From NCBI RefSeq assembly GCF_006265095.1, contig NZ_VCNK01000036.1, positions 1-48,316 of the forward strand: 48,316 bases of DNA, given 5' to 3'. Of the stretch, positions 11,335-35,762 are shown in pieces. Source of the stretch: Phaeobacter sp. B1627. GTDB taxonomy: Bacteria; Pseudomonadota; Alphaproteobacteria; Rhodobacterales; Rhodobacteraceae. The position numbers and the translations under genes are program-made. The notes below the pieces were generated by a model. That model did no database searches, was not told the origin of the DNA, and worked only from the letters and a program-made list of their open reading frames with translations. Numbering within the stretch: position 1 is the first letter of the stretch; the number at the start of each line of letters is the position of its first letter.

Positions 11335-11360
11335 CCGCATAGATCAGTCACACAAAACCT

Positions 11361-11380
11361 GGGGCGGGTCACACCGCCCC
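11361..11380 (+). terminator. Hairpin between binding-protein and permease genes
   Basis: Perfect 7-bp stem GGGGCGG...CCGCCCC with a 6-nt loop, followed by TTTGACATT, in the 69-bp gap after the binding-protein gene. Such hairpins commonly act as partial terminators or mRNA stabilisers that let the binding protein be made in excess over the membrane subunits. Confidence 0.6.
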
Positions 11381-11403
11381 TTTGACATTGTTGGACAAAT
11401 AAA

Positions 11404-12231: not shown

Positions 12232-12241
12232 GGGGCGGGAC

Positions 12242-13030: not shown

Positions 13031-13036
13031 CCAGAC

Positions 13037-15421: not shown

Positions 15422-16793
15422 CGACATTCTGGACTATGCCGAGGCAAACATGCAGGCCTCGCTGGAGCGCCTGTTCGAACTGATCCGCATTCCCTCCGTC
15501 TCGACTGATCCGGCCTATCGCGCGGATTGCAGGCGCACGGCCGAATGGCTTGCAGCCGATCTGAAGAATATGGGCGCCGATGCTTCGGCCCGCGAGACAA
15601 TCGGACATCCCATGGTTCTGGGCCATTTCAACGCCCCCCAGGACAAGCCAAAAGTTCTGTTTTACGGGCATTATGACGTCCAGCCCGCTGATCCGCTGGC
15701 GCTGTGGGACGGTGATCCGTTTGAACCGGTGCTGGTCACCGGCCCCGATGGCAAGCCCGATATCCGGGCGCGCGGGGCCTCTGACGACAAAGGCGCGATG
15801 ATGACTTTTGTCGAGGCCTGTCGGGCGTGGATTTCTGTCCGCGGAGCGCTGCCTGTCGGTGTTTCAGTCTTGTTCGAAGGCGAAGAGGAAAGCGGCTCCC
15901 AGTCGCTTGGCCCCTTTCTGGCCGAAACGGCGGAAGAGCTGGCCTGCGATGCGGTTCTGGTCTGTGACAGCGATCAATGGGATGCAGACACCCCGGCCAT
16001 CACCACCATGATCCGTGGCATTTGCGGACAGGAACTGACGGTCCGGACCGCAAATCGTGACCTCCACTCCGGGATCTATGGCATGGCCGCGCGCAACGCC
16101 CTCACCCTGATGTGCGACCTGATGGCAAGCCTGCGTGCGCCGGATGGGTCGGTGGCCATTGACGGGTTTTACGACGGGGTGGAGGAACCGGACCCATTGG
16201 TGGCCGAGGCCTGGAGCAGGCAGCATTTTGATGGTGACACTTTCCTGAACGATATCGGGCTCAGCCTGCCGGCCGGCGAAACCTCCCGCACGATCCAGGA
16301 ACAGGTCTGGACGCGACCAAGTCTGGATCTGCACGGCGTCTGGGGCGGCTATACAGATCCGGGCTTCAAGACGGTCATTCCTTGCGAAGCCCATGCGAAA
16401 CTGTCGTTTCGCCTCGTGGCAGGGCAGGATCCTGCACGGATCGCAGAACTCTTCCAGAGCCATATCAACGCCCGCCTGCCACAGGACTGTTCCGTTGAAT
16501 TCCACGACCGCACCATGGGCCAGCCGATCGCCCTGCCGGTCAGCTCGCCCTATCTGCAGGCGGCTTTGGCGGGCCTCAAGGACGAATGGGGCACGGCGGC
16601 GATTTCTGGCATGGGCGGATCGATCCCGATCATTCCGCAACTGAAGGCGGCCACCGGTGCTGACGCCCTTCTTGTGGGCTTCGCCGCATTGGACAACCGC
16701 ATTCATGCGCCGAACGAAAAATTCGACCTCGAGTCCTTTGAACGCGGCATACGGTCGTGGATCCATATCCTGCACAGGCTGTCAGAGCTATGA
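15414..16793 (+). CDS. M20 family metallopeptidase (dipeptidase-like)
   Basis: 459 residues with the two-zinc M20 signature: YGHYDVQP (first His), GASDDKGAMM (bridging Asp), the EGEEESGS catalytic Glu pair, a DSD ligand and the C-terminal IHAPNEKF His. It has a lid domain between ~190 and ~330. These enzymes cut dipeptides, acylated amino acids or amide-linked metabolites in the cytoplasm. The start overlaps the deaminase end, and its stop overlaps the nucleoside hydrolase ATG (ATGA). Within this operon it probably cleaves an amide or peptide bond of the imported compound; the natural substrate is unknown. Confidence 0.88.
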   Translation: MVDDILDYAEANMQASLERLFELIRIPSVSTDPAYRADCRRTAEWLAADLKNMGADASARETIGHPMVLGHFNAPQDKPKVLFYGHYDVQPADPLALWDGDPFEPVLVTGPDGKPDIRARGASDDKGAMMTFVEACRAWISVRGALPVGVSVLFEGEEESGSQSLGPFLAETAEELACDAVLVCDSDQWDADTPAITTMIRGICGQELTVRTANRDLHSGIYGMAARNALTLMCDLMASLRAPDGSVAIDGFYDGVEEPDPLVAEAWSRQHFDGDTFLNDIGLSLPAGETSRTIQEQVWTRPSLDLHGVWGGYTDPGFKTVIPCEAHAKLSFRLVAGQDPARIAELFQSHINARLPQDCSVEFHDRTMGQPIALPVSSPYLQAALAGLKDEWGTAAISGMGGSIPIIPQLKAATGADALLVGFAALDNRIHAPNEKFDLESFERGIRSWIHILHRLSEL

Positions 16794-17674
16794 GACCAGT
16801 GATCATCGACACGGATCCGGGAATCGATGATGCCATTGCGATCCTCTTTGCCCTGAACCATCCCGGTCTGGAGGTGCTGACATTGACGACTGTGGCCGGC
16901 AATATCGGCCTTGATCGCACCACATGGAATGCGGGTCGCCTCGCGGCCTTTATGGGACGTGACGTGCCTGTGCACCCGGGCGCCGCGCGTCCTTTGCGCA
17001 GCGACGCAATCAACGAGGAACGTATTCACGGAGATGACGGGCTGGGCGGTGTCGCCTTTCCTGCACCCCGTATCCCCGCGTCGGACGTCGGCGCGACAGA
17101 GGCCATGGCCGATCTGCTGGACCGCCATCCGGAGCGCAGCATCACGGTGCTGACCCTGGGCCCGCTCACCAATCTGGCGCAGCTGATCACGCAGGCCCCT
17201 CAGGCCGCAAGCCGCATCGGCGCGGTTGTCAGCATGGGCGGGGCCGTGCACGAGCCCGGCAATGTTGGCGACAGGGCCGAGTTCAATATCGTCTGGGATG
17301 CCCATGCCGCCGACATCGTATTCCGTGCGGGTCTGGACCTCACGCTGGTGCCGCTTGATACAACGCGAAAATTTCGCGCCGACAAGGCCTATCTCGCCGC
17401 CTTGCGCCGCACCGGGCAGAAGGCGGCGATCGCCAGTGCGGATCTGATCGCAGCCTATCAGGATCAGAAAAACATGGCCGGGCACAGTCGCCCGCTGCAT
17501 GATCCATGCGTACCAATGCTGATCACCGCGCCCGGGGTGTTCGACGTTCAGCAGATGAACCTGTCAGTCGATACAGAAACCGGTGCCATCAGATCCGGCG
17601 AGTGCCCGCTCAAGGTCTCGATGGGGCTGGATGCGGAGGCCGCGCGTCAGGTGCTGTTGAGGGGGCTGTCCTGA
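16790..17674 (+). CDS. Inosine/uridine-preferring-type nucleoside hydrolase
   Basis: 294 residues. The family N-terminus IIDTDPGIDDAIAI holds the calcium-binding aspartates, and TLGPLTNLA, VVSMGGAVHEPGN, the EFNIVWDAHAA motif and HDPCVPM (late catalytic segment with Asp) follow in order. It splits the N-glycosidic bond of nucleosides to free base plus ribose. The ATG at 16790 overlaps the upstream stop by ATGA and places the DTDPG motif at its normal position. Co-occurrence with adenine-deaminase-like and phosphoribosyltransferase genes supports purine nucleoside breakdown. It ends 13 bp before the stop of a convergent gene. Confidence 0.9.
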   Translation: MRPVIIDTDPGIDDAIAILFALNHPGLEVLTLTTVAGNIGLDRTTWNAGRLAAFMGRDVPVHPGAARPLRSDAINEERIHGDDGLGGVAFPAPRIPASDVGATEAMADLLDRHPERSITVLTLGPLTNLAQLITQAPQAASRIGAVVSMGGAVHEPGNVGDRAEFNIVWDAHAADIVFRAGLDLTLVPLDTTRKFRADKAYLAALRRTGQKAAIASADLIAAYQDQKNMAGHSRPLHDPCVPMLITAPGVFDVQQMNLSVDTETGAIRSGECPLKVSMGLDAEAARQVLLRGLS

Positions 17675-17687
17675 GCCACCTCGGCGA

Positions 17688-18854
17688 TCACCGCAGCTCC
17701 TCTTTGACCAACGAACACCAAAAGCCGACGCCAGCCGGGATACAGGCATCGTTGAAATCATAGTTGGTGTTGTGGTGCTGGCCCGCGGGCCGCATTTCGC
17801 CCATGCCCAAATGCACATAGCAGCCTGGCACTCGGCTGCTGAACTCGGAAAAATCATCGCCCGGCGTGATCGGGTCACGCTCGGTCACCAGCATATCCTG
17901 ACCAAGGCCGTTGATAACCGCACGACGGGCGATTTCCGTTGGGGCTCCGGCGTTGATGACTGCGGCGGCTCCGCGCGCATACACCACGTCGCACTCCACT
18001 CTGCCAGCCGCCGCGATCCCATTCGCAATCCGCGCGATCGCTGCTTCGATCTGATCGCGAACGTCCGGGTCGTAGCAACGCGCCGTGCCGCCGATTTCAA
18101 CATCATCCGGGATGACATTCAGCGCCGCGAAATTGCCGGCCCGCAACGCACATGCGGACACCACTGCCGGTTTAAGCGGGTTCAGCTCGCGTGCAACAAT
18201 ACTGTTCAGTTGCGCCAAAAACAGGCCCGCCGCCGTCATCGGTTCACGCCCTTCCTGCGGCTTGGCTCCGTGGGTGCCTTCGCCCTTGAACGTGACGCGC
18301 CACCGATCCGAACACGCCAGTTGAGGACCTTTTACCGCCGCGACCTGCCCCAATTCCATGCCTGGCGCATTATGAAGCCCGTAAGCTGCATCAACCGGAA
18401 ACTCAGCAAGAAGCCCGTCCTCGATCATTTTCGCAGCACCGCCAAGGCCCTCTTCGGCAGGTTGAAAAATGAAATGCACAGTGCCTGAGAAATCCTCATG
18501 CACCAGCTGTTCTGCAGCCCCCAAAAGCATGGTGGTGTGGCCATCATGTCCGCAGGCATGCATCCGGCCGGTGGTTTTGGATGCATAGGGCAGCCCGGTG
18601 GTTTCAGTCATCGCCAGAGCGTCCATATCCGCCCGCAGCAGGATCGCCCGGTTTCCGCTGCCTTTGCGCAACGTTCCGACCACACCGGTGCCCCCAAACC
18701 CGCGCGTCACCTCAATACCCGCCGCCGCAAGCCGGGTTGCTACGATTTCCGAGGTCCGATGTTCTTCAAAGCCGATTTCAGGATGTTCGTGCAGATCCCG
18801 TCGCAGCGCGACGAGCTCTCTCAGCGTCTTCGGGTCCATCTGCTGCATATTCAT
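17688..18854 (-). CDS. M20D family amidohydrolase (hippurate/IAA-amino-acid hydrolase type)
   Basis: 388 residues from the ATG at 18854; an in-frame extension further upstream is low-complexity and overlaps the divergent gene, so I reject it. Motifs: RRDLHEHPEIGFEEH, LLRADMDAL, MHACGHDGHT, FQPAEEGLGGA, GTHGAKPQEG, and C-terminal DDFSEFSSRVPG. These are the metal and catalytic sites of N-acyl-amino-acid/hippurate hydrolases. It is transcribed against the surrounding operon, diverging from the phosphoribosyltransferase gene across a 74-bp gap. It may deacylate an intermediate or a related amide nutrient. Confidence 0.9.
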   Translation of the reverse strand: MNMQQMDPKTLRELVALRRDLHEHPEIGFEEHRTSEIVATRLAAAGIEVTRGFGGTGVVGTLRKGSGNRAILLRADMDALAMTETTGLPYASKTTGRMHACGHDGHTTMLLGAAEQLVHEDFSGTVHFIFQPAEEGLGGAAKMIEDGLLAEFPVDAAYGLHNAPGMELGQVAAVKGPQLACSDRWRVTFKGEGTHGAKPQEGREPMTAAGLFLAQLNSIVARELNPLKPAVVSACALRAGNFAALNVIPDDVEIGGTARCYDPDVRDQIEAAIARIANGIAAAGRVECDVVYARGAAAVINAGAPTEIARRAVINGLGQDMLVTERDPITPGDDFSEFSSRVPGCYVHLGMGEMRPAGQHHNTNYDFNDACIPAGVGFWCSLVKEELR

Positions 18855-18928
18855 CAACCCCGAGCCTATCTCTTTGATTTTGTCGGCAATATACCTCAGT
18901 AAGAAATTCGAGAACAAGGGGTAAGCAC

Positions 18929-19576
18929 GTGCGACTTGATGTCTGGCAGGACCTTCATGATGATCTCCGACCCGGGGTACAGGACGACGGCGAGACCTTT
19001 GCCGCAGAGCTGGGGCGTCAACAGCTCCTGCTGCCGATCCGGACCCTGCCAAATGGCACCAATGGCGTGGCGTCCCTCATCCTGAACCAGGCCAGTTTCA
19101 GCGTCCTGGACGCGATTGCCGATCATGTGGCGGCCCGGCTTCGCCCTCATGCGCCCGACGTCATCGTGGCAATGCCAACCCTCGGCTTGCCCCTCGGCGA
19201 AGCACTTGCGCGGCGTCTGGGTCACAAGCGCATGGTTCCACTCAGCACCTCGCGCAAATTCTGGTATGAGGATGCGCTTTCCACCCCGATTACCTCGATC
19301 ACCACTCCCGATCAGGGAAAGCATCTGTACATGGATCCCCGCATGGTGCCGCTGCTGCAGGGGGCGCGTGTTGCGGTGGTTGACGATGTGCTGTCCAGCG
19401 GCAAGAGCATGAGCGCGGCGCTCACCCTCATGGCAAAGGCAGGCATCGCTGCGGATGTGATCGGATGCGCCATGCTGCAGGGTGAGGCATGGCGCGGCGT
19501 GGTGGGGCGGACGCCCGTCTGCCATGCCATTCATACACCGATCCTGACGCAGGAAAAAACCGGGTGGCGCCAATGA
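18929..19576 (+). CDS. Type I phosphoribosyltransferase
   Basis: 215 residues. The PRPP-binding loop is clear: VAVVDDVLSSGKSMSAAL (~144-161). VIVAMPTLGLPLGEALA (~77-93) forms the phosphate loop of adenine/orotate-type enzymes. The start is GTG at 18929 with AAGGGG upstream. It overlaps the deaminase gene by ATGA. The family converts a base plus PRPP to the nucleotide; next to an adenine-deaminase-like gene a purine base is the likely substrate, competing with deamination. Confidence 0.82.
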   Translation: MRLDVWQDLHDDLRPGVQDDGETFAAELGRQQLLLPIRTLPNGTNGVASLILNQASFSVLDAIADHVAARLRPHAPDVIVAMPTLGLPLGEALARRLGHKRMVPLSTSRKFWYEDALSTPITSITTPDQGKHLYMDPRMVPLLQGARVAVVDDVLSSGKSMSAALTLMAKAGIAADVIGCAMLQGEAWRGVVGRTPVCHAIHTPILTQEKTGWRQ

Positions 19577-21423
19577 GCGACGCTGAACTCTCCCCGCAAT
19601 ATGAGGCCGATCTGCGTCGGGATCTCATCGAAGTGGCCCTCGGCAAGCGCGCTGCAGACACATTGCTGCAGCTGGACAGATTGCTGGACACCGGCACTGC
19701 GCTCTGGCGGGAAGATGTGGACATCGCCATGTACCGGGGTCGCGTCGCCTATGTCGGCCCCCGCGGAAGCTATATCGGCAAGGCCAATGAGGTGGTTGCG
19801 CGCCCGGGCCTGTCTGCGGTGCCTGGATTGGGAGAAGTCCACAAACACATCGAATCCAGCCATGTCACCCCGGAATATGAGGCACGGCTGGTGTTGCCGC
19901 ACGGCAATACATGGACCTGCGAGGCAAGCCATGAGTTCTCCAATGTTGTTCCCGAAAAAACATTGGATTTTTGGGAAGCTGCGCGCAAAGCAGGCTCGCC
20001 TCTCAAGATTTTTCCCCTCCCGGGCTCGGCCGTCCCGCCGACGGCCTGGGAGCACGGGGCCCATTTGGATGGCGTGAACCAGTCACAATTCCTGTCACAA
20101 TCTCCGTGGGTTGTCGGCCTGGACGAAGTCATGGATTGGCCCGCAGTCAAAGGCCGCGACAATCCCGCCCACGACCGGCTCTGGTCCATGATCATTGCGA
20201 CCTGGACAGCACGCGCCGTTGTCGAAGGCCATGCGGCTGGCATTCGGGATCTTCCCAATATCAACGGATTTGCGGCCTCCGGCATTGCTTCGGATCACGA
20301 GGCCTGGACCGCAGAAGAGGCGTTTGACAAATTGCAGTCGGGCCTCTTTGTCGAAATCCGTATCCACACAGGCGAGGAGATCATCAAGGGCCTGCTGGAC
20401 CGCGGCCTGAAAGACTGGTCTCAGGTCGCTCTGGCGACAGATGACCGCCCCGCCTCCGAAGTTTTTGCGACAGGTGCAACAGACCAAAACGTCCGCATGG
20501 CGATCAACGCCGGTCTGCCGCCGGAAATCGCCGTCCAACTGGTCACGATCAACCCAGCCCGCCACATGCGCTTGACCCCATGGGTCGGCTCGGTGAGCCC
20601 TGGGCGTTTTGCCGACCTGGTGCTGCTGTCAGATCTCGAAACGTTTGAGATTGATCAGGTCTGGGCCGATGGTCGGCAGGTTTCACAAGGCCCGGACTAT
20701 ATTGCCGATGTGCCCCATGTCGCCTGGCCGGACTGGGCCACGCGCAGCATCCATATCGGCCGGGACCTGACAGCTGACGATTTCGCGATCAAGGCGGCGC
20801 CCGGCCGCGAGACCATGCAGGCCGCTGTCTTGCGCCCTTTTCACTGGGCAGACGATTTCCTGACGTTTGAGATGCCGGTCCGCAACGGCGCGGTGCAGCG
20901 AGATACAGACAGAAACCTGACGAAATTCGCGATCATTGATCGCTACAGCGGCCAGGCCTCGGTCTCAAGAATGTTCTGGCTCGGCTGCGGGCCCCGCGAT
21001 GTTAACACCGCCCTGTGTTGTTCGATGGCGCATGACAAACACAATGTCTGGTGCGTCGGGTCATCGGATGAGGCAATGGCATTGGCGGTGAATACCCTTG
21101 CGGCAATGGGCGGCGGCTGGGTTCTGGTCCACAAGGGAGAAGTGGTGGCCAAAGTCCGGTACGAAGTTGCAGGCCTGATGACCGCACGCCCTGCAGAACA
21201 ACTGGATGCCGAAATGCAGGCGCTCTATGCGGCTGGCGAAAAGGTAGATTGGATGTTTGAGCCGAGCTTTCACCCGCGCTGGGCCCCTGGATTTCCCGAA
21301 CGTCTGGCCTTTGCAACGCTGACCTGTTCGCCCTGGCGTTGGAATTTGGTTGCCCCGTCTCTGCATGCGCCAGACGGGTTGGTTCAGGTTCAAACGGGCG
21401 AAGCGCACCCTGTGGTCTGGTGA
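19573..21423 (+). CDS. ade: Adenine deaminase-like amidohydrolase
   Basis: 616 residues, close to the usual ~600 of Ade. The metal site reads PGLGEVHKHIESSHVTP; canonical Ade has PGFIDGHVHIESS, so the HxH and ESS are kept but the preceding Asp is Glu. EGHAAGI, the IHTGEE and ATDDRPASE segments (metal Asp) follow, and the C-terminal domain has the Ade-specific MAHDKHNVWCVG and NTLAAMGGGWVLV motifs. The reaction would be adenine to hypoxanthine plus ammonia. The ATG at 19573 overlaps the phosphoribosyltransferase stop. Altered residues around the metal site leave room for a related aminopurine substrate. Confidence 0.82.
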   Translation: MSDAELSPQYEADLRRDLIEVALGKRAADTLLQLDRLLDTGTALWREDVDIAMYRGRVAYVGPRGSYIGKANEVVARPGLSAVPGLGEVHKHIESSHVTPEYEARLVLPHGNTWTCEASHEFSNVVPEKTLDFWEAARKAGSPLKIFPLPGSAVPPTAWEHGAHLDGVNQSQFLSQSPWVVGLDEVMDWPAVKGRDNPAHDRLWSMIIATWTARAVVEGHAAGIRDLPNINGFAASGIASDHEAWTAEEAFDKLQSGLFVEIRIHTGEEIIKGLLDRGLKDWSQVALATDDRPASEVFATGATDQNVRMAINAGLPPEIAVQLVTINPARHMRLTPWVGSVSPGRFADLVLLSDLETFEIDQVWADGRQVSQGPDYIADVPHVAWPDWATRSIHIGRDLTADDFAIKAAPGRETMQAAVLRPFHWADDFLTFEMPVRNGAVQRDTDRNLTKFAIIDRYSGQASVSRMFWLGCGPRDVNTALCCSMAHDKHNVWCVGSSDEAMALAVNTLAAMGGGWVLVHKGEVVAKVRYEVAGLMTARPAEQLDAEMQALYAAGEKVDWMFEPSFHPRWAPGFPERLAFATLTCSPWRWNLVAPSLHAPDGLVQVQTGEAHPVVW

Positions 21424-27636: not shown

Positions 27637-28090
27637 TCACCCCCTGCGGGAGCTGCGGCCCTGCGCCCGGCCCGCCCTGACCGTCAATGAAGGCGATCAT
27701 CGCTTCAATGGGCGGTCGAGTTCCGCCTGAGCAAAACAGGCTGACGTCTTGGGCAATATCTCATTCGCCTGGCGCAGCACGCGGTCCTCACGTTCGAGAG
27801 CTTTTGCCCGATCGCGGTCCCCGGTTGCGAGACCATCGCGCATGGGGTGGGCTCATGTATCCCAGCAACCACGCTGGAGTCACAACGAGATCTACTCGCC
27901 ACCTCCACTTACAGCATTGAATTGATCAACAAATAATCGGATGTGGGCAAAAAGCCTATGACACCGACGAATGGGCTTTTCCAAAAGAGACCCGGAATTC
28001 TCGAAAGAGAGCCGCGGCTCTCCTTTGCCGGAGCGAAAACAGTTCTGCCAGAACACTGGCGCAGTTTTCAAACCGATAGAGGATTATCAA
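27637..28090. other. Gene-free leader of the peptide cluster
   Basis: 454 bp with no recognisable gene. It contains a loose inverted repeat AAAAAGCC...GGCTTTT (27949-27980, 17-nt loop) followed by CC, and the perfect palindrome listed at 28007-28022. The promoter of the peptide gene should lie here. Confidence 0.5.
28007..28022. promoter_or_regulatory. 16-bp perfect palindrome upstream of the peptide gene
   Basis: GAGAGCCGCGGCTCTC, 68 bp before the peptide ATG, with further AAA/TTT complementarity outside one mismatch. It could be an operator for the linked LuxR or winged-helix regulator, or a leader hairpin in the mRNA. Confidence 0.5.
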
Positions 28091-28507
28091 ATGTCTGATT
28101 ACACAGCCGCCGAATTGCAGGAAATGGAAGCAGAATTTTCGGCCATGGATGCCGAATTCGCGGGCCTCGGCCTGGAAGAACTGGACAGCGAATTCGGTGA
28201 GGCCTTTGCCGAATTGGACGCTGAACTGGACGCCGCAGGGATCAGCACGCTGGATGTCGAGGCGATGTCCATCGGCGAGATGGCCGAGAATGACTACGAT
28301 GCTCAGTTCATCGGGCGCTTCCTGCGCAACAAGGCCAAAAAGCTGATCGCCACCGTCGTCCGTCTGGTCAAGCGCTATGGCAAATGCGCCAAATGCGCAC
28401 CCAAGGTCCTGGCCGCCGTGAAGTACTTCAAGGCGAAGAAATATGCCTCCGCGATCCGCGCCGCCTATGACGCCTATCGCTGCATCCGGGCTTGCACCAA
28501 GACGTAA
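28091..28507 (+). CDS. Two-part precursor-like peptide: acidic leader, cationic four-cysteine C-terminus
   Basis: 138 residues, not matched to any family I know. Residues 1-~70 are very acidic with repeated EF/EL motifs (EMEAEF, MDAEF, LDSEF, LDAEL) and no signal peptide. Residues ~71-138 are strongly basic, rich in Lys, Arg, Ala and Tyr, and look like two amphipathic helices carrying C99-x2-C102 and C131-x3-C135, a pattern suited to a disulfide-linked helical hairpin. The split in charge is like a precursor whose acidic leader neutralises a membrane-active cationic product. The ATG at 28091 follows GAGGATTATCAA. Downstream subtilases could remove the leader. Antimicrobial or nucleic-acid binding roles are both possible. 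Confidence 0.75.
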   Translation: MSDYTAAELQEMEAEFSAMDAEFAGLGLEELDSEFGEAFAELDAELDAAGISTLDVEAMSIGEMAENDYDAQFIGRFLRNKAKKLIATVVRLVKRYGKCAKCAPKVLAAVKYFKAKKYASAIRAAYDAYRCIRACTKT

Positions 28508-28514
28508 CGCCCGC

Positions 28515-28548
28515 CCGCGAGACCATGCCCTCCCTCATGGTCTCGCGG
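28515..28548 (+). terminator. Strong hairpin after the peptide gene
   Basis: Perfect 13-bp stem (left arm CCGCGAGACCATG, right arm CATGGTCTCGCGG) with an 8-nt loop, starting 7 bp after the peptide stop. The following sequence is CT-rich but has no clean T-run. It probably acts as a partial terminator or 3' stabiliser, so that the peptide is made in excess over the enzymes downstream. Confidence 0.75.
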
Positions 28549-28600
28549 CCCTCTTCGCCTGGACCCAGAAAACGGCTGGCATGCCCAACAGGAGCTCCCA

Positions 28601-28870
28601 ATGACACGCCCCATCCTCCCAAGCGATCAAGAAGTGATCGATGCGTTTCTCGCCGAACATGAGGCGGCCGAGACCGAACCGCTGACACACGACGCCTCCA
28701 TCGATCAGTTGATTGCCCAGCTTGAGGCCAGTTTTGCAACCGTCAAACAACTGACCGAACCCGAACCGACCGGTGAAGACCGATTGCGTGACGCGGTGCG
28801 CGACCTCGCGACGCGCCTTGAGGAGATCGCCACTGATCTGGCTCAGATCAATCAGCAACTCAACGACTAA
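28601..28870 (+). CDS. Small acidic coiled-coil protein
   Basis: 89 residues, not recognised. It is strongly acidic with no cysteine, no signal peptide and two helical stretches: ~8-55 (EVIDAFLAEHEAAE..., IDQLIAQLEASFATVKQL) and ~58-88 (heptad pattern in RLRDAVRDLATRLEEIATDLAQI). Ribosome site AGGAG before the ATG. It sits between the cationic peptide and the first subtilase, 11 bp before the latter, so it is likely co-translated with it. Possible roles are a chaperone or neutralising partner of the basic peptide, or a cofactor of the protease. These are guesses from charge and position. Confidence 0.65.
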   Translation: MTRPILPSDQEVIDAFLAEHEAAETEPLTHDASIDQLIAQLEASFATVKQLTEPEPTGEDRLRDAVRDLATRLEEIATDLAQINQQLND

Positions 28871-28881
28871 AGGATAATGCA

Positions 28882-30555
28882 ATGCACGAGGTCACATCCC
28901 GCAAAGATCGCAAACCCACGCGTCAATTCATCATTGGGAAGCCAGCGACCCCGCCCGCCCATTTGCAGGAGGTCGATCTGGAAGCTCTCGGTGAAGAACT
29001 CACGCGGCGCCAGGTGCAAATCGCGGCCCAAACCGTTGAGGGCGATGCAACTGCCCCTCTGGCCTTCAAAGCGATGCGCGACCCGGACAGCCATCAAATC
29101 CACACCCTCCAGGTCGAGCTGACAGAGGCCCATGCCGATGAACTGCGCGCGCGCCATGGCGAAGCCTTGATCATCGAAGAAGATCACGACCTTGAGATGT
29201 TCACCATCAGCCCCGGCGCTGACGCTTTCGAAATGAGCATGGCGCGCCCTCTTGCGGCCCAAAGTGACGAGCTGAAAGTGACGTTGAAAGTGGTGGACGA
29301 AAACGATGCCCCGCTATCAAAGGTGCAGGTCGATCTTGCCGGTGATCTGTGGTCGGATCGCCAGTTGACCAGCACTCAGGGCAAGGTCACGCTCAAGCTG
29401 TTCGGCGAAACACTCGACAGCCTGACCCAGCTGCGTGTGAAGCCCGCAAATGGGTATTGGAGCCGCGTCATTGAAAGCCCGGCACTCGCAGCGCAAAACA
29501 ACGTGGTACGGCTCAGCCCGTTGCCGGTCTCGCTTGAGGGACCACAGGCCGATATGTGGGGAAACGAAGCGGTCGGCAATGTCGTGATGCCCGAAGGCAA
29601 TCGGGTGCGCGTCGCAGTGATCGACAGTGGATTTGCCGATGGGCACCCCGATGTGGTCGCGGCAGGTGGTCGCGGTTTTGCCGAAGGGGGCGATCCGGAA
29701 GAGGACTGGAAGACCGATGACAGCGGGCATGGCACCCATGTGGCCGGCACCATCGGCGCGCTGAACAATGCCATCGGCATGCGCGGTGTGGCAGACAAGG
29801 TCGATATTTTCGCGCTGCGCGTTTTTCCTGGGGCCAGCATCTCCAAGCTGATGGCCGCAATCGATACAGCCATCGAATTGCAGGTTGATGTTGTCAACAT
29901 GTCTCTGGGCGGCCCCAACCCCAGCGCGCTTCTGCAACAGCGCATGCAGGCGGCGCGGCAAGCGGGAATTCTTCTGGTGGCGGCTGCAGGCAATAATGCA
30001 GGCCCGGTGATGTACCCCGCCGCCTACCCTGAGGTGATGGCCGTGGCGGCGATCGGGAAGCAGGGCACATTCCCCGAAGACAGCTTCCACGCCCGACATA
30101 TCACCCAACACACCAGTACGGACGGCACCTATTTCGCAGCCGGCTTCACCTGCCGGGGGCCGGAGATAGATGTCTGTGGACCGGGGGTCGCGGTAATTTC
30201 AACCGTGCCAGGCGATAGTTATGTGGCAAACGATGGCACATCCATGGCTTCGCCCCATATCGCCGGTCTCGCGGCCGTCCTGCTGGCGCAAAACCCGGAC
30301 ATCCAAACGATGCCGCGCAGTGATGCCCGCTCTCAGGCATTGTTTCAATCGATTTTGAATGCGGCCCGCCCTCTGGGCCTGCCCGCTGAATTTCAGGGAC
30401 GCGGCCTGCCTGTCTTGACCGGAACCACGCCCCCTGCGCCCCAGCCTGGCGGTGGCGAGACGCCGGCACCTGTGGAGGACACTGGCCTCGATACGGTGGC
30501 CGACCTGATCCAAAAGGCGCTGGATGCGGCCAAACTGATCAAGGAACAAGCCTGA
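28882..30555 (+). CDS. Subtilisin-like serine protease (S8) with N-terminal pro/beta-sandwich region
   Basis: 557 residues. The catalytic triad is complete: D248 (RVAVIDSG), H283 (DSGHGTHVAGT), S454 (NDGTSMASPHIAG), with oxyanion N371 (AAAGNN). Residues ~1-120 form a non-secretory N-terminal part (prodomain-like), ~128-212 look like a beta-sandwich (KVTLKVVDENDAPL... GKVTLKLFG), and the C-terminus is a Pro-rich linker plus a short helix (~510-557). There is no signal peptide or membrane segment, so it appears to act inside the cell unless exported unconventionally. Being downstream of the peptide gene, it is the prime candidate for leader removal. Confidence 0.9.
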   Translation: MHEVTSRKDRKPTRQFIIGKPATPPAHLQEVDLEALGEELTRRQVQIAAQTVEGDATAPLAFKAMRDPDSHQIHTLQVELTEAHADELRARHGEALIIEEDHDLEMFTISPGADAFEMSMARPLAAQSDELKVTLKVVDENDAPLSKVQVDLAGDLWSDRQLTSTQGKVTLKLFGETLDSLTQLRVKPANGYWSRVIESPALAAQNNVVRLSPLPVSLEGPQADMWGNEAVGNVVMPEGNRVRVAVIDSGFADGHPDVVAAGGRGFAEGGDPEEDWKTDDSGHGTHVAGTIGALNNAIGMRGVADKVDIFALRVFPGASISKLMAAIDTAIELQVDVVNMSLGGPNPSALLQQRMQAARQAGILLVAAAGNNAGPVMYPAAYPEVMAVAAIGKQGTFPEDSFHARHITQHTSTDGTYFAAGFTCRGPEIDVCGPGVAVISTVPGDSYVANDGTSMASPHIAGLAAVLLAQNPDIQTMPRSDARSQALFQSILNAARPLGLPAEFQGRGLPVLTGTTPPAPQPGGGETPAPVEDTGLDTVADLIQKALDAAKLIKEQA

Positions 30556-30584
30556 GAAATCACCCCAAGGCTGCAAACATTACA

Positions 30585-30613
30585 GACTCCGCAGGGTGAA
30601 ACCTTGCGGAGTC
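30585..30613. terminator. Terminator between convergent genes
   Basis: 12-bp stem with one G-T pair (outer arms GACTCCGCA and TGCGGAGTC), 5-nt loop, followed by TTGAATTT. It lies 29 bp after the protease stop and before the convergent LuxR-type gene, so it probably ends the peptide-protease transcript. Confidence 0.75.
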
Positions 30614-30667
30614 TTGAATTTGGGATCGTAGCCTCGTTCAGCTGTGCCGTATCGCCCAGATATAATG

Positions 30668-31342
30668 TCAGGCATAATGCAACGTGGACTGTTCTGCCTT
30701 TCCCAATCCCGCCTGAACCGCCGATACTGCCAGCGCCGTGCGGTTCGCGGCACCTGTCTTTTGCATAATGGATTTCACATCACTCTTCACTGTGGTGAGC
30801 GGCACGCTCAGTGCGTGGGCGATCTCTTTGTTGGGCGCTCCGCGCAGCAACTGACCCAGGACTTGGGTTTCGCGTTGCGTCAAACCGGTCTGGATCGCCC
30901 GCAAACTGGCCAGCGGCCGGGTGCTTTGCACAAGCCGATGCAGGACATCCGCCGCCCCGTCCGGCAGCACCCGCTGACCTTCGGCAGCCAGCCGGATATA
31001 CTGTGGGAACGTCGACAGCGGCGCGCAGGACTGAACGCAGCCTGCAGGTCCGCAGGCAAAGATCCGGGCCAACTGCGCCGCGTCAAACCCCGGAACCACC
31101 AGCAAGGACCGCAACCGGGGTTTGTCCTGATGCAACTTTGACAACGCGCGAAAAACCACCTCCGACAGCCCCTCGCCCATATCCACCACAAGCACATCTG
31201 CCGCGCCCGAGGCGTTGCCCCCGCACCTGCAAAGCGTCAGAAAATCCTCGACTGAGACGGCAAAGCGAATGCCATCCTGCTCCAGCACTGCGCCCAAAGC
31301 CGATGTGAAAAACGAATTTCTAGACACCAATAAAACCTTCAT
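30668..31342 (-). CDS. LuxR-type regulator with degenerate receiver domain
   Basis: 224 residues. The C-terminal helix-turn-helix is typical (LTQRETQVLGQLLRGAPNKEIAHAL...TTVKSDVKSIMQKTGAANRTALA, ~152-206). The N-terminal ~120 residues have receiver-like strands (MKVLLVSRNSFFTSAL, DVLVVDMGEG), but the acidic pair after the first strand is missing (SRN), so normal phosphorylation is doubtful. No kinase is nearby. It is convergent with the protease and divergent from the winged-helix/TPR gene, and probably controls this cluster. Confidence 0.85.
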   Translation of the reverse strand: MKVLLVSRNSFFTSALGAVLEQDGIRFAVSVEDFLTLCRCGGNASGAADVLVVDMGEGLSEVVFRALSKLHQDKPRLRSLLVVPGFDAAQLARIFACGPAGCVQSCAPLSTFPQYIRLAAEGQRVLPDGAADVLHRLVQSTRPLASLRAIQTGLTQRETQVLGQLLRGAPNKEIAHALSVPLTTVKSDVKSIMQKTGAANRTALAVSAVQAGLGKAEQSTLHYA

Positions 31343-31773
31343 GGTGCGGTCCCCCGTTGAAAATGCAAAATTTTAAAACACAGCCATGATGGCGGAGCCG
31401 CGTTAGTCCGCCGTAAAGCTTCCTCAGCGTGAGCTTTCGAGGTCGAGCGGGAAAAACAAACTGAAAGCTCAAGCCAGTGCGCGACACAGACGGTCCCGCA
31501 ACTGCGCCTTTGGCCATCACGTAACGCGGCTGGCCGGGAAACGTTAACGCTTCACTAACGGCAGCCTTGGCAAAGTGATTCCTGCATTTGGACGGGAAGT
31601 GGAAAATGCTTTTGAACACAGAACATTTTGAATACGCCTTAGACGCAAGTGGAAAGCCGTCCTTTTCGCAGCCCGATTTTCCATCAACACATGGATCCGG
31701 CGCTGCGAGCACGAGGGCGCACGTTAGTCCCTCTTCTCTTCCAAATGCACCAGTTTCTCCACATAATCAGGGC
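31343..31773. other. Divergent regulatory region of the peptide cluster
   Basis: 431 bp between two regulator genes. It holds an inverted repeat AAAGCT...AGCTTT (31415-31437), a further AAAGCT at about 31463, and the palindrome CGTTAACG (31542-31549). These are candidate sites for the flanking regulators. The right part (from 31588) is open in frame with the next gene and might encode a disordered N-terminal extension. Confidence 0.45.
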
Positions 31774-33498
31774 ATGACAGCGCCAACACAGACCGTTGCG
31801 AGGCTTTTTGTAATCGGACCGCTCAGGCTGACTGACGGGGCCGGAAATTCGGTCACGCCCCGCAGCAAGAAGGCCTGTGCGCTTCTGGCTCTTCTGGCGC
31901 TGGCACCCCGTTGCCAACGCACAAGGGTCTGGTTGCGCGACAAACTCTGGAGCGAAAGTTGCGAACGCAAATCCTCCACAAGCCTGCGGCAACTGCTCTT
32001 CGAGCTGCGCCGTGATCTTGGCGGGCTGTTCGATGCCATGCTCGAAGTGGATCGGCACGCCATCATGCTGAGGCGCGATGCGGTCTGGATCGACATCCGC
32101 AACGTCGAGACAGATCCAAACACGCTGACAGCGCTGAGGATCACGCCGGACACCGACCTGCTCGAAGGGATCGATGTGGCGGACGAAGAATTCGAAGACT
32201 GGTTGCTGCTCGAACGTCAGGCCTGGCACAACCGCGCGACGGACCTCTTCGCGCAAATCACGGACCTGTCCACGGCTTCTGCCGCGCGCAGCCTGCCACA
32301 GGCGGCACTCTTTGCCGAAACGATCCCGGAGCCCCGGCTGCGTGTGGGGGTGCTGCCGAATATCCAGCAAGGTTGCGATGCCGATACCGCCTTTGTCGCC
32401 GACCACCTTGTCGAGGGGATCGTCAAAAACCTCAGAGAGTTGCACCCGCTGGACATCTACGACTTGCGCGATACCAGCGGCCCGTCCGACGGGCTCGTAG
32501 GCTCCGGCAACACGGATCATTTGCTCCGGGTTCGGGCGCTGCAGATCCGCCATACCCTGACATTGACCTTCTTCCTCTACTCGGCCAGGAACATGTCTCT
32601 GGAGTGGAGCCAATCCATTCAGACAAGCGTCGACGAGGCCCTGAACTTTGACAGCTATGTGCTGGCGGGGTTCATCAACCAGAACGTCGACCGTATCTCG
32701 CGCCATTTCGAACAGCGTCAGACAACCGAATTGGCGGAACAGCCCAAGCCAATTGTGGCCGCCATGTCGGCGCTGAACATGATGTTCCGGCTTGACGATC
32801 GCGCCCTGGAAAACGCCGAAGCCATGCTTCGCAACCACGCAGATACTGCCTCATCGGGTCTATTCGATGCTATGCGCGCCTATGCGGCCAGTTTTAAAGT
32901 GGGGGAAAACCTTGGCAGGCTTCAGTCTGATGACGTGAACGCCACAAGTGATCTGGCCCGTGGCGCTCTGAGCGGTAACCCGTTCAATTCCATCTCGCTT
33001 GCCTGCCTGGCGCATGCGATGGGCTATGTGTTCCATGAACATGGGCTGGCCAGTGATCTTCTGGACAAGGCACTGCGGCTCAACCCCAACCAGGCGTTTG
33101 TGTGGGATCACTATGCGCTCAACCGCATGTATGTGGGCGATTACGAAGCGGCCCACAAAGCGGCCGAGCGCGCGGTCTATCTGGGCAGTTTCAGCCCGCT
33201 CAGCTACAGCTATGACACCACACTAGCGATGACCTCGACGATGCTCGGCCGCAATCAGCTGGCCATCGCATCCAGCCGGAACGCTTTGCGCAAACAACCA
33301 AATTTTGCGGCAGCCATGCGATATCTGCTTGTAAACCTCTCAAAAACCGACCGCGAGGAAGAGGCCCGCAGCACCTATGCGGCGTTGTTGAAACGCGATC
33401 CCGATTTTGCTGACCCAGAGATCCAGAAAACCCGTTTCCGCCTTGTTCAGAAAGGCACTGAAACCGACCTGATTTCAACAATCAAAAAATTTACATAA
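31774..33498 (+). CDS. SARP-like winged-helix regulator with TPR domain
   Basis: 574 residues from the ATG at 31774. A winged-helix domain of the OmpR/SARP kind opens the protein (LFVIGPLRLTDGAGNSVTPRSKKACALLALLALAP... LRDKLWS... SSTSLRQLLFELRRDLG), followed by a BTAD-like helical part, a middle domain (~190-330) and C-terminal TPR-type helices (~370-570, e.g. LLDKALRLNPNQAFVWDHYALNRMYVGDYEAAHKAAERA). There is no transmembrane segment. The frame is open back to 31588 with another ATG at 31606 preceded by GGAAGTGG, giving a disordered Ser/Pro-rich extension; I prefer the start at the domain edge. It precedes the PAP2-like enzyme by 12 bp and probably activates the cluster. Confidence 0.82.
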   Translation: MTAPTQTVARLFVIGPLRLTDGAGNSVTPRSKKACALLALLALAPRCQRTRVWLRDKLWSESCERKSSTSLRQLLFELRRDLGGLFDAMLEVDRHAIMLRRDAVWIDIRNVETDPNTLTALRITPDTDLLEGIDVADEEFEDWLLLERQAWHNRATDLFAQITDLSTASAARSLPQAALFAETIPEPRLRVGVLPNIQQGCDADTAFVADHLVEGIVKNLRELHPLDIYDLRDTSGPSDGLVGSGNTDHLLRVRALQIRHTLTLTFFLYSARNMSLEWSQSIQTSVDEALNFDSYVLAGFINQNVDRISRHFEQRQTTELAEQPKPIVAAMSALNMMFRLDDRALENAEAMLRNHADTASSGLFDAMRAYAASFKVGENLGRLQSDDVNATSDLARGALSGNPFNSISLACLAHAMGYVFHEHGLASDLLDKALRLNPNQAFVWDHYALNRMYVGDYEAAHKAAERAVYLGSFSPLSYSYDTTLAMTSTMLGRNQLAIASSRNALRKQPNFAAAMRYLLVNLSKTDREEEARSTYAALLKRDPDFADPEIQKTRFRLVQKGTETDLISTIKKFT

Positions 33499-33510
33499 AG
33501 GGAGACGACA

Positions 33511-34383
33511 TTGGATATTGAAGAGATTTTGACCCAGCACAGGTTCACTGTGACATCCACTGGCCTGCGCCTTGACGGTCAGACCGAAGCGCCGGTTGAC
33601 AATCCTGACACGGCGGCAGCCGGAGGCGCGGCATTGTCGCTCTTGTCTCTGAACCGCAATCGCAACAGGAACAGAAACCGCAATCGGAACAGAAATCGCA
33701 ACAGGAACAGAAATCGGAACCGGTCGCTTGACATCGGGACGAGCGCAGCGCCGCAGGAGCCGTGGAAAGAACGCGAACGGTTGCATGATCTACGCTCCGA
33801 ATGGCAAGATCTGCCTTTGCCGTTGCCGCCGAACGCCGAAGGGCTGCGCAGGCAGGCGCTCGATCTGCTGGTCAAGCAAGCATTGCGTGCGACACCGCAG
33901 GAGGCCAGTCGTGAAACAGAAATCTTGCGCGAGGCAGCTATCGAACTCTCCGGCTATCTGCGCCCCTTGGGGGTCGAAGAACTCGGCAGCTACGGCGCCA
34001 CCGAAACTCTGTTCTATCTTATCCTGGCCCTGACCGACGAAATTGGCCTGCGCTATAAGGATCGCTACAACGTTCTGCGTCCCAACCAGATTGAACCGCG
34101 CCTGCGTCCAGTCCTGCCCAATCCGCCGCATCAATCCTATCCGTCGAACCACTCCTTCCAATCGTTTTCGATCGCATTTTTGTTCTCGCGGATCGTGCCG
34201 GAACACCCGGCCAGCTCCGAGTTGTTCAACAGTGCGCGGCGGATTGCGGAAAACCGCGAATGGGCCGGATTGCACTACGCTTGCGATACGCAGGCGGGGT
34301 ATCAACTGGCCCGTATGGTCGCGCCGGTTCTTGAAACAGTCTGCAAAGAGCAAATGCTCGCAGCCCAGGCGGAGTGGCTCTGA
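33511..34383 (+). CDS. PAP2/vanadium-haloperoxidase-fold enzyme with Asn-Arg repeat
   Basis: 290 residues. The full phosphatase/haloperoxidase signature is present: K183-x6-R190-P191, P211-S-N-H214 (usual PSGH), and R249-x5-H255-x3-D259. There are no obvious membrane helices, which favours the soluble haloperoxidase-like branch over membrane lipid phosphatases; which reaction it performs cannot be told from sequence. Residues 48-71 are twelve Asn-Arg dipeptides. The start is TTG at 33511 with GGGAG at 6-nt spacing. The stop overlaps the ATG of the second subtilase. In this cluster it might halogenate or dephosphorylate the Tyr-rich peptide; that is speculation. Confidence 0.8.
   Translation: MDIEEILTQHRFTVTSTGLRLDGQTEAPVDNPDTAAAGGAALSLLSLNRNRNRNRNRNRNRNRNRNRNRNRSLDIGTSAAPQEPWKERERLHDLRSEWQDLPLPLPPNAEGLRRQALDLLVKQALRATPQEASRETEILREAAIELSGYLRPLGVEELGSYGATETLFYLILALTDEIGLRYKDRYNVLRPNQIEPRLRPVLPNPPHQSYPSNHSFQSFSIAFLFSRIVPEHPASSELFNSARRIAENREWAGLHYACDTQAGYQLARMVAPVLETVCKEQMLAAQAEWL
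33652..33723 (+). repeat. (Asn-Arg)12 coding repeat
   Basis: 72 bp encoding twelve successive Asn-Arg dipeptides. Asn uses AAC and AAT while Arg uses CGC, CGG, AGG and AGA, yet a 17-bp string (CGCAACAGGAACAGAAA) recurs exactly 36 bp apart (33661, 33697). This suggests an old duplication of a 12-codon unit under selection for the protein sequence. Confidence 0.9.
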
Positions 34384-35762
34384 TGGGAAAATATGAACAG
34401 GATATCGTCGCAACCGGACAAGGGAACTATCCGGATTACGACGCGCTGTGGCACTTGCAAACCTTGGGCGTTCTGGACGCTCGGCATGCGCCGCTGGACT
34501 GGTCGCCCAGGCCACCCGTGAAGCCCACGCGGGTGGCGGTGATCGATACCTCCGTTGCAGTGGAACACCCCAATCTGAAAAACACGATCAACACAGAGTT
34601 GACGATTGATTTCTTCTCAGCGCGCCTGGGGTCCTTTCCATATCGCGGCGCACTCGATGCGCTCGATCTGAATTGGGACACCAATATCGCCGATGGCCTG
34701 CCGCATACAGTCCGCATTTTGACAGAGTTCATTGACAGGCTGTCCAGCGGTTCTGCCGCCCGTCACAACAGGGTCCAACCCTGCGTGCGGCCGGATTTCT
34801 CCGGTCATGGCACCTGTATTGCCGGTCTTGTGGGCGCCCGCCCCTGCATAACAGAACAGCGCCTGTCGTCCGGCCGGACGGCCTCGCTTGCGCTGCCCTA
34901 TACCGGTGTCGACCCGACGTGTGAAATCGTCCAGATCTCCACCAATTTTGACCCGGAGCCCGAGGGCATGATTCTCGCCTTCCTCTACGCGGAATTGATT
35001 CAGGCCGACGTCGTCCTGTTGCCGCGCACCATCTCGGACCCCAGCCGCATGATCCCTGAACTGGGAGACGTGATGCTGGGCGATCAAAGCGTCAGGGATC
35101 TCGTCCGTCAGGTCGCGGCTTCGCCAATTCAGGATGAAATGTGGAGCGAACTGGCCCAGTTGATCGTCAATGTATCCCAAAACCGCCCCGTCGTCTGTGC
35201 TGCGGGCAACGCGAATGAAGAAGGCGCGATCTACCCGGCCAATCTTGCCACGGATCACAACGGCATCATTTCGGTCGGCGCGGTCAATGCCAAAGGCTTT
35301 CCCAGCAGCTACTCGGGGCGCCAGAACATCACTGTCTTCGCCCCGAGCAACGACGCCGAAGCCTTTGACGCCAGTCAGGTGCGGCTTGATGAACAGAATT
35401 CCGAATACGACCCCATCGGCGTGCCGGTCAGCAACGACAATGACAAGTTCTCTAGTTTTGATGTAATCAGTACCGATGTCCCTGGTCCTGCCGGCTACTC
35501 GGGCAGCACTTTTGTCGGTATGCCGCAAACTGGCGAGATGCGGGAATATGGCTCCTATTTCAGCCGGTTCGGGGGGACGTCCGCCGCGTCCGCACTGGTG
35601 GCAGGCTTCATGTCACTGGGGCGCTCCATGGGTGAGTACCCGACCAATTCGGGGAATGCAGCCAAATCCTGGCTCCTGTCGAAGAGCCATGAACAACAAG
35701 GGTGTGATATGCCCTTTGGCGTGCCTTGCTGGTCTGGCGCCCCCAGCTTTCCCGACACTTAA
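34383..35762 (+). CDS. Second subtilisin-like protease (divergent S8)
   Basis: 459 residues from the ATG at 34383 (TGATG overlap with the upstream stop, GGAG at 8-nt spacing). The triad is present: D55 (RVAVIDTSV), H142 (DFSGHGTCIAG), S400 (FGGTSAASALVAG), with oxyanion N276 (CAAGNANEE). It differs from the first subtilase: no prodomain, a ~85-residue insert between the Asp and His motifs, an extended segment before Ser, and a Cys-containing C-terminus (CDMPFGVPCW). There is no signal peptide. Tight coupling with the PAP2-like gene suggests the two products act together on the same target. Confidence 0.88.
   Translation: MGKYEQDIVATGQGNYPDYDALWHLQTLGVLDARHAPLDWSPRPPVKPTRVAVIDTSVAVEHPNLKNTINTELTIDFFSARLGSFPYRGALDALDLNWDTNIADGLPHTVRILTEFIDRLSSGSAARHNRVQPCVRPDFSGHGTCIAGLVGARPCITEQRLSSGRTASLALPYTGVDPTCEIVQISTNFDPEPEGMILAFLYAELIQADVVLLPRTISDPSRMIPELGDVMLGDQSVRDLVRQVAASPIQDEMWSELAQLIVNVSQNRPVVCAAGNANEEGAIYPANLATDHNGIISVGAVNAKGFPSSYSGRQNITVFAPSNDAEAFDASQVRLDEQNSEYDPIGVPVSNDNDKFSSFDVISTDVPGPAGYSGSTFVGMPQTGEMREYGSYFSRFGGTSAASALVAGFMSLGRSMGEYPTNSGNAAKSWLLSKSHEQQGCDMPFGVPCWSGAPSFPDT

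Follow-up and report, generated by a model that had tools for sequence, protein, structure and literature searches.

Several described systems resemble parts of the locus reported here, which lies in a window (the whole stretch of DNA that was analyzed, 48,316 nucleotides) of Phaeobacter sp. B1627. Class A non-specific acid phosphatases (7f17, PhoN, and PhoC) are secreted and carry a signal peptide; the PAP2 protein of our locus is like them in its catalytic domain, catalytic residues, and small soluble size, but it has an N-terminal repeat tail, its gene has TPR and protease genes as neighbors, and no signal peptide was seen by eye in the aligned N-termini. Vanadium-dependent haloperoxidases have the superfamily and active-site residues in common with this protein, at a lower similarity than the acid phosphatases. 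The RRNPP systems of Firmicutes combine a TPR-containing regulator, a short peptide sequence, and a protease, and the likeness to our locus lies in these three elements of their general description; here, however, the short sequence forms a tandem tract within a 290 amino acid enzyme in Proteobacteria, no export signal was seen, and a cyclase may provide the output.

SARP/BTAD-TPR and cyclase-TPR signaling proteins have the same domain make-up as the triad regulators described below, whereas the latter adjoin a gene encoding a repeat-tailed PAP2 protein. Finally, there are pro-antimicrobial peptides with an acidic pro-part, and bacterial gasdermins are protease-activated pore formers. In our locus, the acidic half of a pro-peptide could likewise neutralize its cationic helical half, and a protease gene adjoins the peptide gene; unlike those systems, this pro-peptide reached the cut-off of no Pfam or NCBIfam family, and a fold search of its model against the PDB gave 62 matches at E ≤ 10, none of them at E ≤ 0.001.

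Gene content and edges of the cassette

The initial annotation described a seven-gene set, and every gene it named is present where it was placed (Table 1). The same seven genes, in the same order, are found in Tritonibacter mobilis and Phaeobacter sp. HF9A (loci L004 and L005), and both subtilase B relatives confirmed by contig scan hold the whole set in order. DNA similarity (blastn) begins at the same left edge against both loci and ends at 35737-35756, with zero similarity in the flanks compared, which marks the block as a mobile cassette. More distant relatives keep the two halves separate, so the proposed conservation of gene order holds for close relatives only.

Table 1. Features of the cassette in the window.
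Feature	Position	Strand	Support
Left cassette edge, conserved stretch 5' of the peptide gene	27981..28090	+	blastn, L004 and L005
Peptide gene, 138 aa pro-peptide	28091..28507	+	
89 aa acidic coiled-coil-like protein	28601..28870	+	
Subtilase A, 557 aa, same orientation as peptide gene	28882..30555	+	Pfam S8, 1.1e-42
LuxR-type regulator, GerE domain	30668..31342	-	Pfam, 2.8e-13; also in L004 and L005
TPR regulator, SARP-like (weak winged helix, C-terminal TPR)	31588..33498	+	weak Pfam matches
PAP2 protein, Asn-Arg repeat tail and class A acid phosphatase-like domain	33511..34383	+	
(Asn-Arg)12 tract, PAP2 residues 48-71	33652..33723	+	
Subtilase B, 462 aa	34374..35762	+	Pfam S8, 6.4e-18

Both subtilases carry the Pfam S8 domain and, as read by eye from the translations, a complete Asp-His-Ser triad, in agreement with the initial annotation, and inspection by eye showed no signal peptide in either; the subtilase B gene overlaps the end of the PAP2 gene by 10 bases. 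The TPR regulator has an annotated TTG start, and its true start may lie further in; its Pfam matches are all weak (best 0.00033). Conservation within the cassette is uneven. The pro-peptide is the most conserved protein (~96% identical in L004 and L005, with 6 amino-acid-changing codons against 43 and 32 synonymous differences, respectively), and subtilase A is 86% identical in both. Together with the recurrence of the entire block in two further species, this codon pattern of the peptide gene argues that the gene set is no product of chance. The 89 amino acid protein, which reached the cut-off of no Pfam or NCBIfam family, is the least constrained member judging from its codons (19 and 24 amino-acid changes vs 26 and 23 synonymous ones).

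The cassette PAP2 protein matches its Pfam family just below the cut-off (5e-6; 26.7 bits against 27.2). The catalytic residues K......RP, PS.H, and R.....H...D, already recognized in the initial annotation, are invariant in two alignments (17/17 sequences, including the window protein, and 19/19), with N, G, or A at the third position of PS.H; this conservation indicates that the PAP2 enzyme matters. The closest fold is the class A acid phosphatase 7f17 (profile E 2.4e-24; Foldseek E 1.1e-8). Haloperoxidases score lower in the profile comparison (bromoperoxidase 2.8e-12; iodoperoxidase 1.6e-3) and first appear at rank 28 in Foldseek. The protein thus resembles acid phosphatases more closely than haloperoxidases: its earlier designation as haloperoxidase-fold stands at the level of the superfamily, and halogenation or other haloperoxidase chemistry is unsupported.

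The TPR regulator, PAP2 protein, and protease triad

The genes for the TPR regulator, the PAP2 protein, and the protease form a triad that recurs across Proteobacteria. In our searches, which sampled the family, class, and phylum as draws, TPR-PAP2-subtilase adjacency was found in 11/11 other family genomes having subtilase B. The three genomes of the same 295-genome draw that matched the peptide include none of the 11, and a search of the 11 triad loci with the peptide profile gave no match. Therefore, the job of the triad cannot depend on this peptide, which leaves the single peptide-maturation pathway with a haloperoxidase proposed by the initial annotation unsupported in that form.

The N-terminal output domain of the regulator varies: Trans_reg_C or BTAD accompanies TPR in several homologues and a cyclase domain (Guanylate_cyc) in others, while the winged-helix (Trans_reg_C) match of the window regulator is only 0.11. 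TPR was detected by Pfam in nearly all triad regulators scanned, L079 giving zero families and L078 only a weak TPR match. Different protease families occupy the same position of the triad, either S8 or A4, with a weak C1-like match below cut-off in L006. No homologous protease lies within reach downstream in L043, L045, and L046; L045 has an S8 gene upstream on the other strand and L043 a weak papain-like match nearby. An M24 peptidase beside L073 is unlikely to be a triad member. Our search of the literature, which covered CC-licensed PMC papers, found no description of the triad or of the tail among the matches listed.

The repeat tail of the PAP2 protein

The PAP2 protein of the window carries an (Asn-Arg)12 tract, which does not appear in the initial annotation. 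Such an N-terminal tandem repeat, with a unit of 2-4 residues, is present in 47/47 distinct TPR-adjacent PAP2 proteins (at least four copies in 46, three in L043) and in 4/25 without a detected TPR neighbor, where adjacency requires a homologue at E ≤ 1e-4 no further than 2.5 kb away (1.5 kb for short loci), with some of the TPR queries drawn from these very loci. These 72 distinct proteins derive from 122 loci, many of which are duplicates of a single site; a script chose the ORFs, and those lacking the PAP2 motif pattern were dropped. Two of the four exceptions, L042 and L120, do have TPR matches; their called start extends into the TPR gene, and for this reason alone they were scored as lacking one. 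The other two, L098 and L132, carry the repeat but show no TPR homologue in their 1.5-kb flanks.

Since the search profiles were built from triad members and favor triads, the bias-free comparison is the control with Pfam PF01569 in 21 genomes. Of its 30 rows, 23 gave a usable ORF and the other seven were dropped; the repeat is present in 9/9 TPR-adjacent rows and in 1/14 others (L098), two of the 14 being one protein. The repeat is therefore a near-universal feature of the triad.

We counted 28 cyclic repeat units (e.g., NR, NAY, GHT, and DAR). Only 10/1399 residues across 51 tracts are off-unit; each tract was delimited by its longest exact run, a definition that favors perfection, and for this count the tracts were extended with mismatches. 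Identical codons one unit apart make up 372/1225 pairs, whereas permutation gives a mean of 469.4 (sd 14.2), with 0/2000 permutations as low; downstream of the tract no avoidance is seen (1373/3360 pairs vs 1350.9 permuted, sd 27.9). In the window, the 12 Asn-Arg units are encoded by six different DNA units. Codons thus avoid repetition within the tract and not downstream of it, showing that the repeat is kept as protein and not as unstable DNA. A functionless tract made by replication slippage is accordingly highly improbable: NSF copy number does vary by one unit among three Phaeobacter species, each represented by a single strain (6, 7, and 5 copies), and the tract of L151 (Phaeobacter, outside the set of 51) is broken up, but the codon permutations and the lack of any effect downstream speak against such an artefact, and the tract goes with the triad and is absent from ordinary PAP2 proteins.

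Within single genomes, the units all differ in 5/5 genomes with at least two tracts read (NR/NAY/GHT in G000, NAY/NSS/GHT in G683, NAE/GGF in G294, EGGG/GSF in G670, and NR/GHT in G991; further matches in G250 and G075 are outside this count), a pattern that may be plain ancient paralogy. On one tree, made by a quick method in which the long branches of L006, L043, and L132 are unsure, there are at least 27 unit changes against three changes of protease type. Protease type tracks this phylogeny, which confounds its association with unit chemistry.

The tail could also be a scaffold, regular and either disordered or self-associating, that localizes or clusters the phosphatase, its unit drifting freely while the protease merely trims it. 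The (Asn-Arg)12 tract lies within residues 25-80, predicted to be disordered (pLDDT < 50), and Gly and Asn occur in 17/29 and 13/29 unit strings, respectively, as would suit such a role. Composition alone, however, needs no exact periodicity, which the tracts keep, and whole tracts switch unit as a block (TGV in L120 vs AGV in its neighbor L127), so we regard a scaffold as unlikely.

The cationic pro-peptide and a proposed two-module model

The charge split noted in the initial annotation was borne out by counting: residues 1-70 of the pro-peptide hold 22 D/E and no K/R, and residues 71-138 hold 19 K/R and one D/E, with four Cys in the cationic part. The junction has conserved residues (S60, E63, M64, A65, and Y69), and the cationic part is predicted to form three helices in a model of moderate confidence (mean pLDDT 72.1). 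No signal peptide was seen by eye, and the gene lies two genes from the TPR regulator. One credible distant homologue was identified, in L006 (genome G145; 43% identity in the alignment, 35% by BLAST), where the peptide gene adjoins a trypsin-like protease gene, with regulator and PAP2 genes again nearby; a peptide gene beside a protease of another family fits proteolytic activation. A match in G017 (E 0.0065, 25% identity) is attributed to chance, as the peptide profile does not recover it. This profile found only the window's own peptide among 385 class genomes, and 72,556 plasmid records held two T. mobilis records, both remnants.

Two other readings start from the peptide. It could be the precursor of a RiPP or antimicrobial peptide, acted on by the two subtilases as well as the PAP2 enzyme and exported as a bacteriocin. 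The acidic leader, cationic core, and conserved junction would suit this, as would the protease gene adjoining the peptide gene in both known contexts and the partial NCBIfam matches of subtilase A, all under cut-off (QhpE, 97.5 of 165 bits; PatA/PatG, 54.3 of 421; mycosin, 109.5 of 278.75). In addition, the genes after a related Rhizobium leguminosarum triad include one for an aKG-HExxH peptide beta-hydroxylase (TIGR04267, above its cut-off at 8.4e-20), one that is ThiF-like, and a 66 amino acid ORF. We nevertheless consider it rather unlikely, given the triads that lack this peptide, the absence of an exporter or immunity gene among the seven genes, the kinship of the PAP2 protein to acid phosphatases, and a peptide that matches no Pfam or NCBIfam family at cut-off; no RiPP precursor or modifying-enzyme family reached cut-off in the cassette (Pfam, NCBIfam).

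Alternatively, the cassette could be an intracellular suicide or defense switch in which the triad is the trigger and a protease activates a membrane-disrupting peptide, as in the logic of gasdermins. The adjoining protease gene, the lack of a visible signal peptide, and the unshared flanks of the cassette are consistent with this, and among the other triads (L031, L032, and L033) there are some near heme peroxidase genes and one near a trypsin-nuclease-subtilase fusion. PADLOC, however, matched only a generic subtilase model, besides hits that were partial or weak (e.g., part of IetS, 2.1e-9), and its models recognized no known anti-phage system in the cassette, making such a switch quite unlikely.

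The reading we tentatively prefer is a two-module signaling cassette, in which a triad with a tail code is joined to a regulated peptide payload. In the first module (TPR regulator, repeat-tailed PAP2 protein, and subtilase B), the exact short repeat would be a multivalent recognition sequence. TPR grooves bind extended peptides, and we infer that the TPR domain of the regulator reads the tail, while the neighboring protease would cut the tail or be held by it; from the sequences, either could be its partner. The resulting change of protease or phosphatase state would lead to a transcriptional (winged helix/BTAD) or cyclic-nucleotide (cyclase) output, and the repeat unit would act as a private code separating parallel systems within one cell. 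The model gives the PAP2 enzyme no clear substrate. In the second module (peptide, 89 amino acid protein, and subtilase A), subtilase A would remove the acidic half near residues 60-71; the cationic, helical remainder set free in this way would probably act on membranes. The model offers no route for the peptide out of the cell.

The tail may instead be a multi-copy peptide signal, with the protease freeing short oligopeptides, the TPR regulator as their receptor, and the unit as pherotype. Although improbable in our estimation, this would mean that Proteobacteria own a very diverse class of TPR-peptide signaling with insulated channels within one cell, and that a protease-activated cationic peptide is under the control of one such channel.

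To our knowledge, there is no counterpart to an enzyme family in which an exact short repeat is kept by those members that belong to one type of locus, while its unit is repeatedly replaced and its DNA stays non-repetitive. The family offers a natural library of at least 28 repeat codes, with the likely readers and cutters encoded alongside, and makes testable the evolution and privacy of short codes, TPR-peptide signaling in Proteobacteria, and the role of the cationic pro-peptide.

Gene content of the cassette and its near relatives

In the window, contig C66 in a genome of 4.35 Mb, translation and Pfam analyses recovered every gene named in the initial annotation. The genes form two runs, and the LuxR-type gene stands between them on the minus strand; the end of the PAP2 gene and subtilase B overlap by 10 bases. 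A scan of genome contigs with subtilase B yielded two confirmed loci, and the named carriers are Tritonibacter mobilis NBRC101030 and Phaeobacter sp. HF9A. These genes had been proposed to belong together, and indeed all seven keep their order in L004 and L005, the loci of the two near relatives. At the DNA level (78-80% identity), similarity to L005 is unbroken from 27981 to 35756, and similarity to L004 lies in two pieces (27981-30611 and 30668-35737); no similarity to either was found in the flanks compared (about 2.5 kb on the left side and 9 kb on the right). The seven-gene block is a cassette. In a genus survey based on the PAP2 gene with its Asn-Arg (NR) tail, it was present in 3 of 18 genomes (the window genome, G678 and G991), where G678 and G991 may represent the same species as L005 and L004.

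In L005, the cassette is followed by an ORF read by eye as a putative tyrosine integrase. Two T. mobilis plasmids (L035 and L036) harbor a peptide-gene remnant, open only through residue 68, in which similarity extends beyond the open part as far as residue 103; the ORFs in the plasmid stretches examined yielded none of the other cassette proteins. These remnants adjoin RtcB-like and release-factor-like ORFs, also read by eye.

Coordinates of the cassette gene runs and of features at compared loci
Sequence	Feature	Position	Strand
Window	Peptide, 89-aa protein, subtilase A	28091-30555	+
Window	TPR regulator, PAP2, subtilase B	31588-35762	+
L005	Putative tyrosine integrase ORF	10711-11937	
L035	Peptide-gene remnant	8818-9207	
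L036	Peptide-gene remnant	8818-9207	
L034	(NK)n triad locus	11655-14256	
L037	(NK)n triad locus	11417-14153	
L031	Triad near heme peroxidase gene	13950-15788	
L032	Triad near heme peroxidase gene	14076-19799	
L033	Triad near heme peroxidase gene	11497-15254	
L070	(EGGG)3 PAP2 locus	9769-11014	
L151	Interrupted (GHT) tract	1297-2496	

The two-part peptide and the PAP2 enzyme

The peptide carries 22 acidic and no basic residues at positions 1-70, and 19 basic and one acidic residue at positions 71-138. Its AlphaFold2 model (mean pLDDT 72.1) has two longer N-terminal helices, a short helix at 61-66 and helices at 71-95, 100-114 and 118-137, with no match to PDB folds at E <= 0.001. It is the best conserved cassette protein, with 132 of 138 residues identical in each relative, that is, 6 changes vs 43 and 32 synonymous codon differences. 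Among 295 family genomes, the peptide search matched three, namely its own, G145 (5.5e-13) and G017 (0.0065, taken as chance); among 385 class genomes, only its own genome matched. The G145 homologue is a 174 amino acid protein that keeps junction residues S60, E63, M64, A65 and Y69 and two of the four cysteines. Its gene runs in the same direction as a neighbouring trypsin-like gene (6.7e-9), and three genes are transcribed divergently from it: one for a BTAD-TPR regulator, one for PAP2 and one with a sub-cut-off C1 match (0.0021). Thus, a peptide and a protease stand beside the same kind of locus in both genomes, with two unrelated proteases.

Halogenation had been raised as a possibility for the PAP2/haloperoxidase-fold enzyme. 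In profile searches, class A acid phosphatases came first (7f17, 2.4e-24), followed by bromoperoxidase (2.8e-12). Its structural model (mean pLDDT 78.8; residues 25-80 below 50) also matched 7f17 best (E 1.1e-8, TM 0.72 by target length), and the first haloperoxidase appeared at rank 28. Since haloperoxidases rank below acid phosphatases by both approaches, halogenation, though possible, is unsupported.

The TPR-PAP2-protease triad and its repeat tail

Subtilase B was detected at 1e-10 in 12 of 295 family genomes, its own included, and in all 11 others it stands in one row with a TPR regulator and a PAP2 gene. These 11 genomes do not overlap with those that the peptide search matched in the same draw, and the peptide profile found no match in their loci (13.7-19.9 kb each). 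In more distant triads, the protease is of a different S8 type or is an A4 peptidase, and regulator N-termini across triads are BTAD, Trans_reg_C or nucleotidyl cyclase domains. In one scan, TPR models matched nine of ten regulators (L078 weakly) and did not match that of L079. Tailed triads extend beyond Alphaproteobacteria: the phylum draw contained two genomes from a different class that have them (G700 and G900), and further triads, recognised by the tail, are present in Paraburkholderia and Caballeronia plasmids.

Several triads have additional features. The window genome encodes two more, L077 and L078 (contigs C44 and C75), with tails (NAY)9 and (GHT)19 and another S8 protease type. On a Rhizobium leguminosarum plasmid (L034), the triad is followed by a gene of the aKG-HExxH peptide beta-hydroxylase family (TIGR04267), a ThiF-like gene and a 66-aa ORF, and L037, on another plasmid of this species, has genes at matching positions; it is possible that these are RiPP clusters under the same triad. 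L031, L032 (Pfam) and L033 (annotation) lie near animal-type heme peroxidase genes, and L032 encodes a protein in which trypsin-like, DNA/RNA non-specific endonuclease and subtilase domains are fused. In L070, the short (EGGG)3 PAP2 gene adjoins two genes on the opposite strand, and one of these has weak papain-like matches below cut-offs.

An N-terminal short tandem repeat is present in 17 of 17 aligned PAP2 proteins, including that of the window, (Asn-Arg)12. Among 72 distinct proteins with the full motif, all 47 TPR-adjacent ones carry it (at least four copies in 46, three in L043), as do 4 of the 25 without a detected TPR neighbour; in L042 and L120 a TPR gene is present, masked by an over-long start, and in L098 and L132 a protease of the triad type follows downstream. 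In a profile-independent control (PF01569 in 21 genomes; 30 rows, 23 with a usable ORF), the repeat was found in 9/9 TPR-adjacent rows vs 1/14 others (L098), two of these 14 being one protein. When each of the 51 repeat-bearing proteins was shuffled 200 times, at least four copies arose in 1 of 10200 cases.

The 28 cyclic units on the PAP2 tree are NR, NK, SR, NRG, NGGM, AGN, TGN, TSN, EGGG, DAR, DGM, NSF, SGV, NAY, GSF, GGF, GHT, NAE, NHS, NSS, TGV, SGA, TAM, SGGA, GGA, AGV, AGR and QTQ; GGH, GGV and GGL occur in addition on Rhizobium, Caballeronia and Microvirga plasmids. On this tree of 51 domains, the unit must have changed at least 27 times, which is the lowest number that 28 units allow; protease type changes three times, leaving out three rows without a protease call. 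Where at least two tracts were read in one genome, the units differ in 5/5 cases, a count that leaves out further matches in G250 and G075. These differences fit a private code, and they fit plain ancient paralogy as well.

Upkeep of the tail and a proposed mechanism

Of 1225 codon pairs spaced by one unit across the 51 tracts, 372 are identical, compared with 469.4 (sd 14.2) expected from within-tract codon permutation (0/2000 as low). When each unit string was represented by a single tract (29 tracts), 197 were observed vs 267.8 (sd 10.9; 0/2000 as low). Counting more strictly, by whole units that match the following unit exactly, gave a less extreme result (73 vs 93.3, sd 10.7; 66/2000 as low). 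In the parts of these genes downstream of the tracts, pairs of like residues at a spacing of 2-4 codons showed no codon-repeat avoidance (1373/3360 identical vs 1350.9, sd 27.9; 100 permutations). Only 10 of 1399 tract residues depart from the unit, with mismatches allowed. This codon avoidance, together with near-exact residues, indicates that the DNA is held non-repetitive and the protein repetitive. In Phaeobacter inhibens, gallaeciensis and piscinae (one strain each), NSF copies number 6, 7 and 5, differing by single units. It should be noted that L151, from the window's genus and outside the 51-tract set, has a (GHT) tract interrupted by other residues, which counts against strict constraint; it is possible that this system is decaying.

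The constant neighbours of the tailed PAP2 are a TPR protein and a protease of variable family. Near-exact periodicity and free unit choice suggest that a short sequence is recognised multivalently, and TPR folds are known to bind extended peptides. We propose that the TPR domain would read the tail, that the protease would edit it or be held by it, and that the output may be transcription or a cyclic nucleotide. In the window cassette, the payload would be the pro-peptide, putatively released by subtilase A. We recognised no description of the triad or the tail among the matches listed for CC-licensed PMC literature. The component families are individually already known; within the reach of this search, their combination, a repeat-tailed enzyme with a likely reader and a likely cutter, represents a new type of system.
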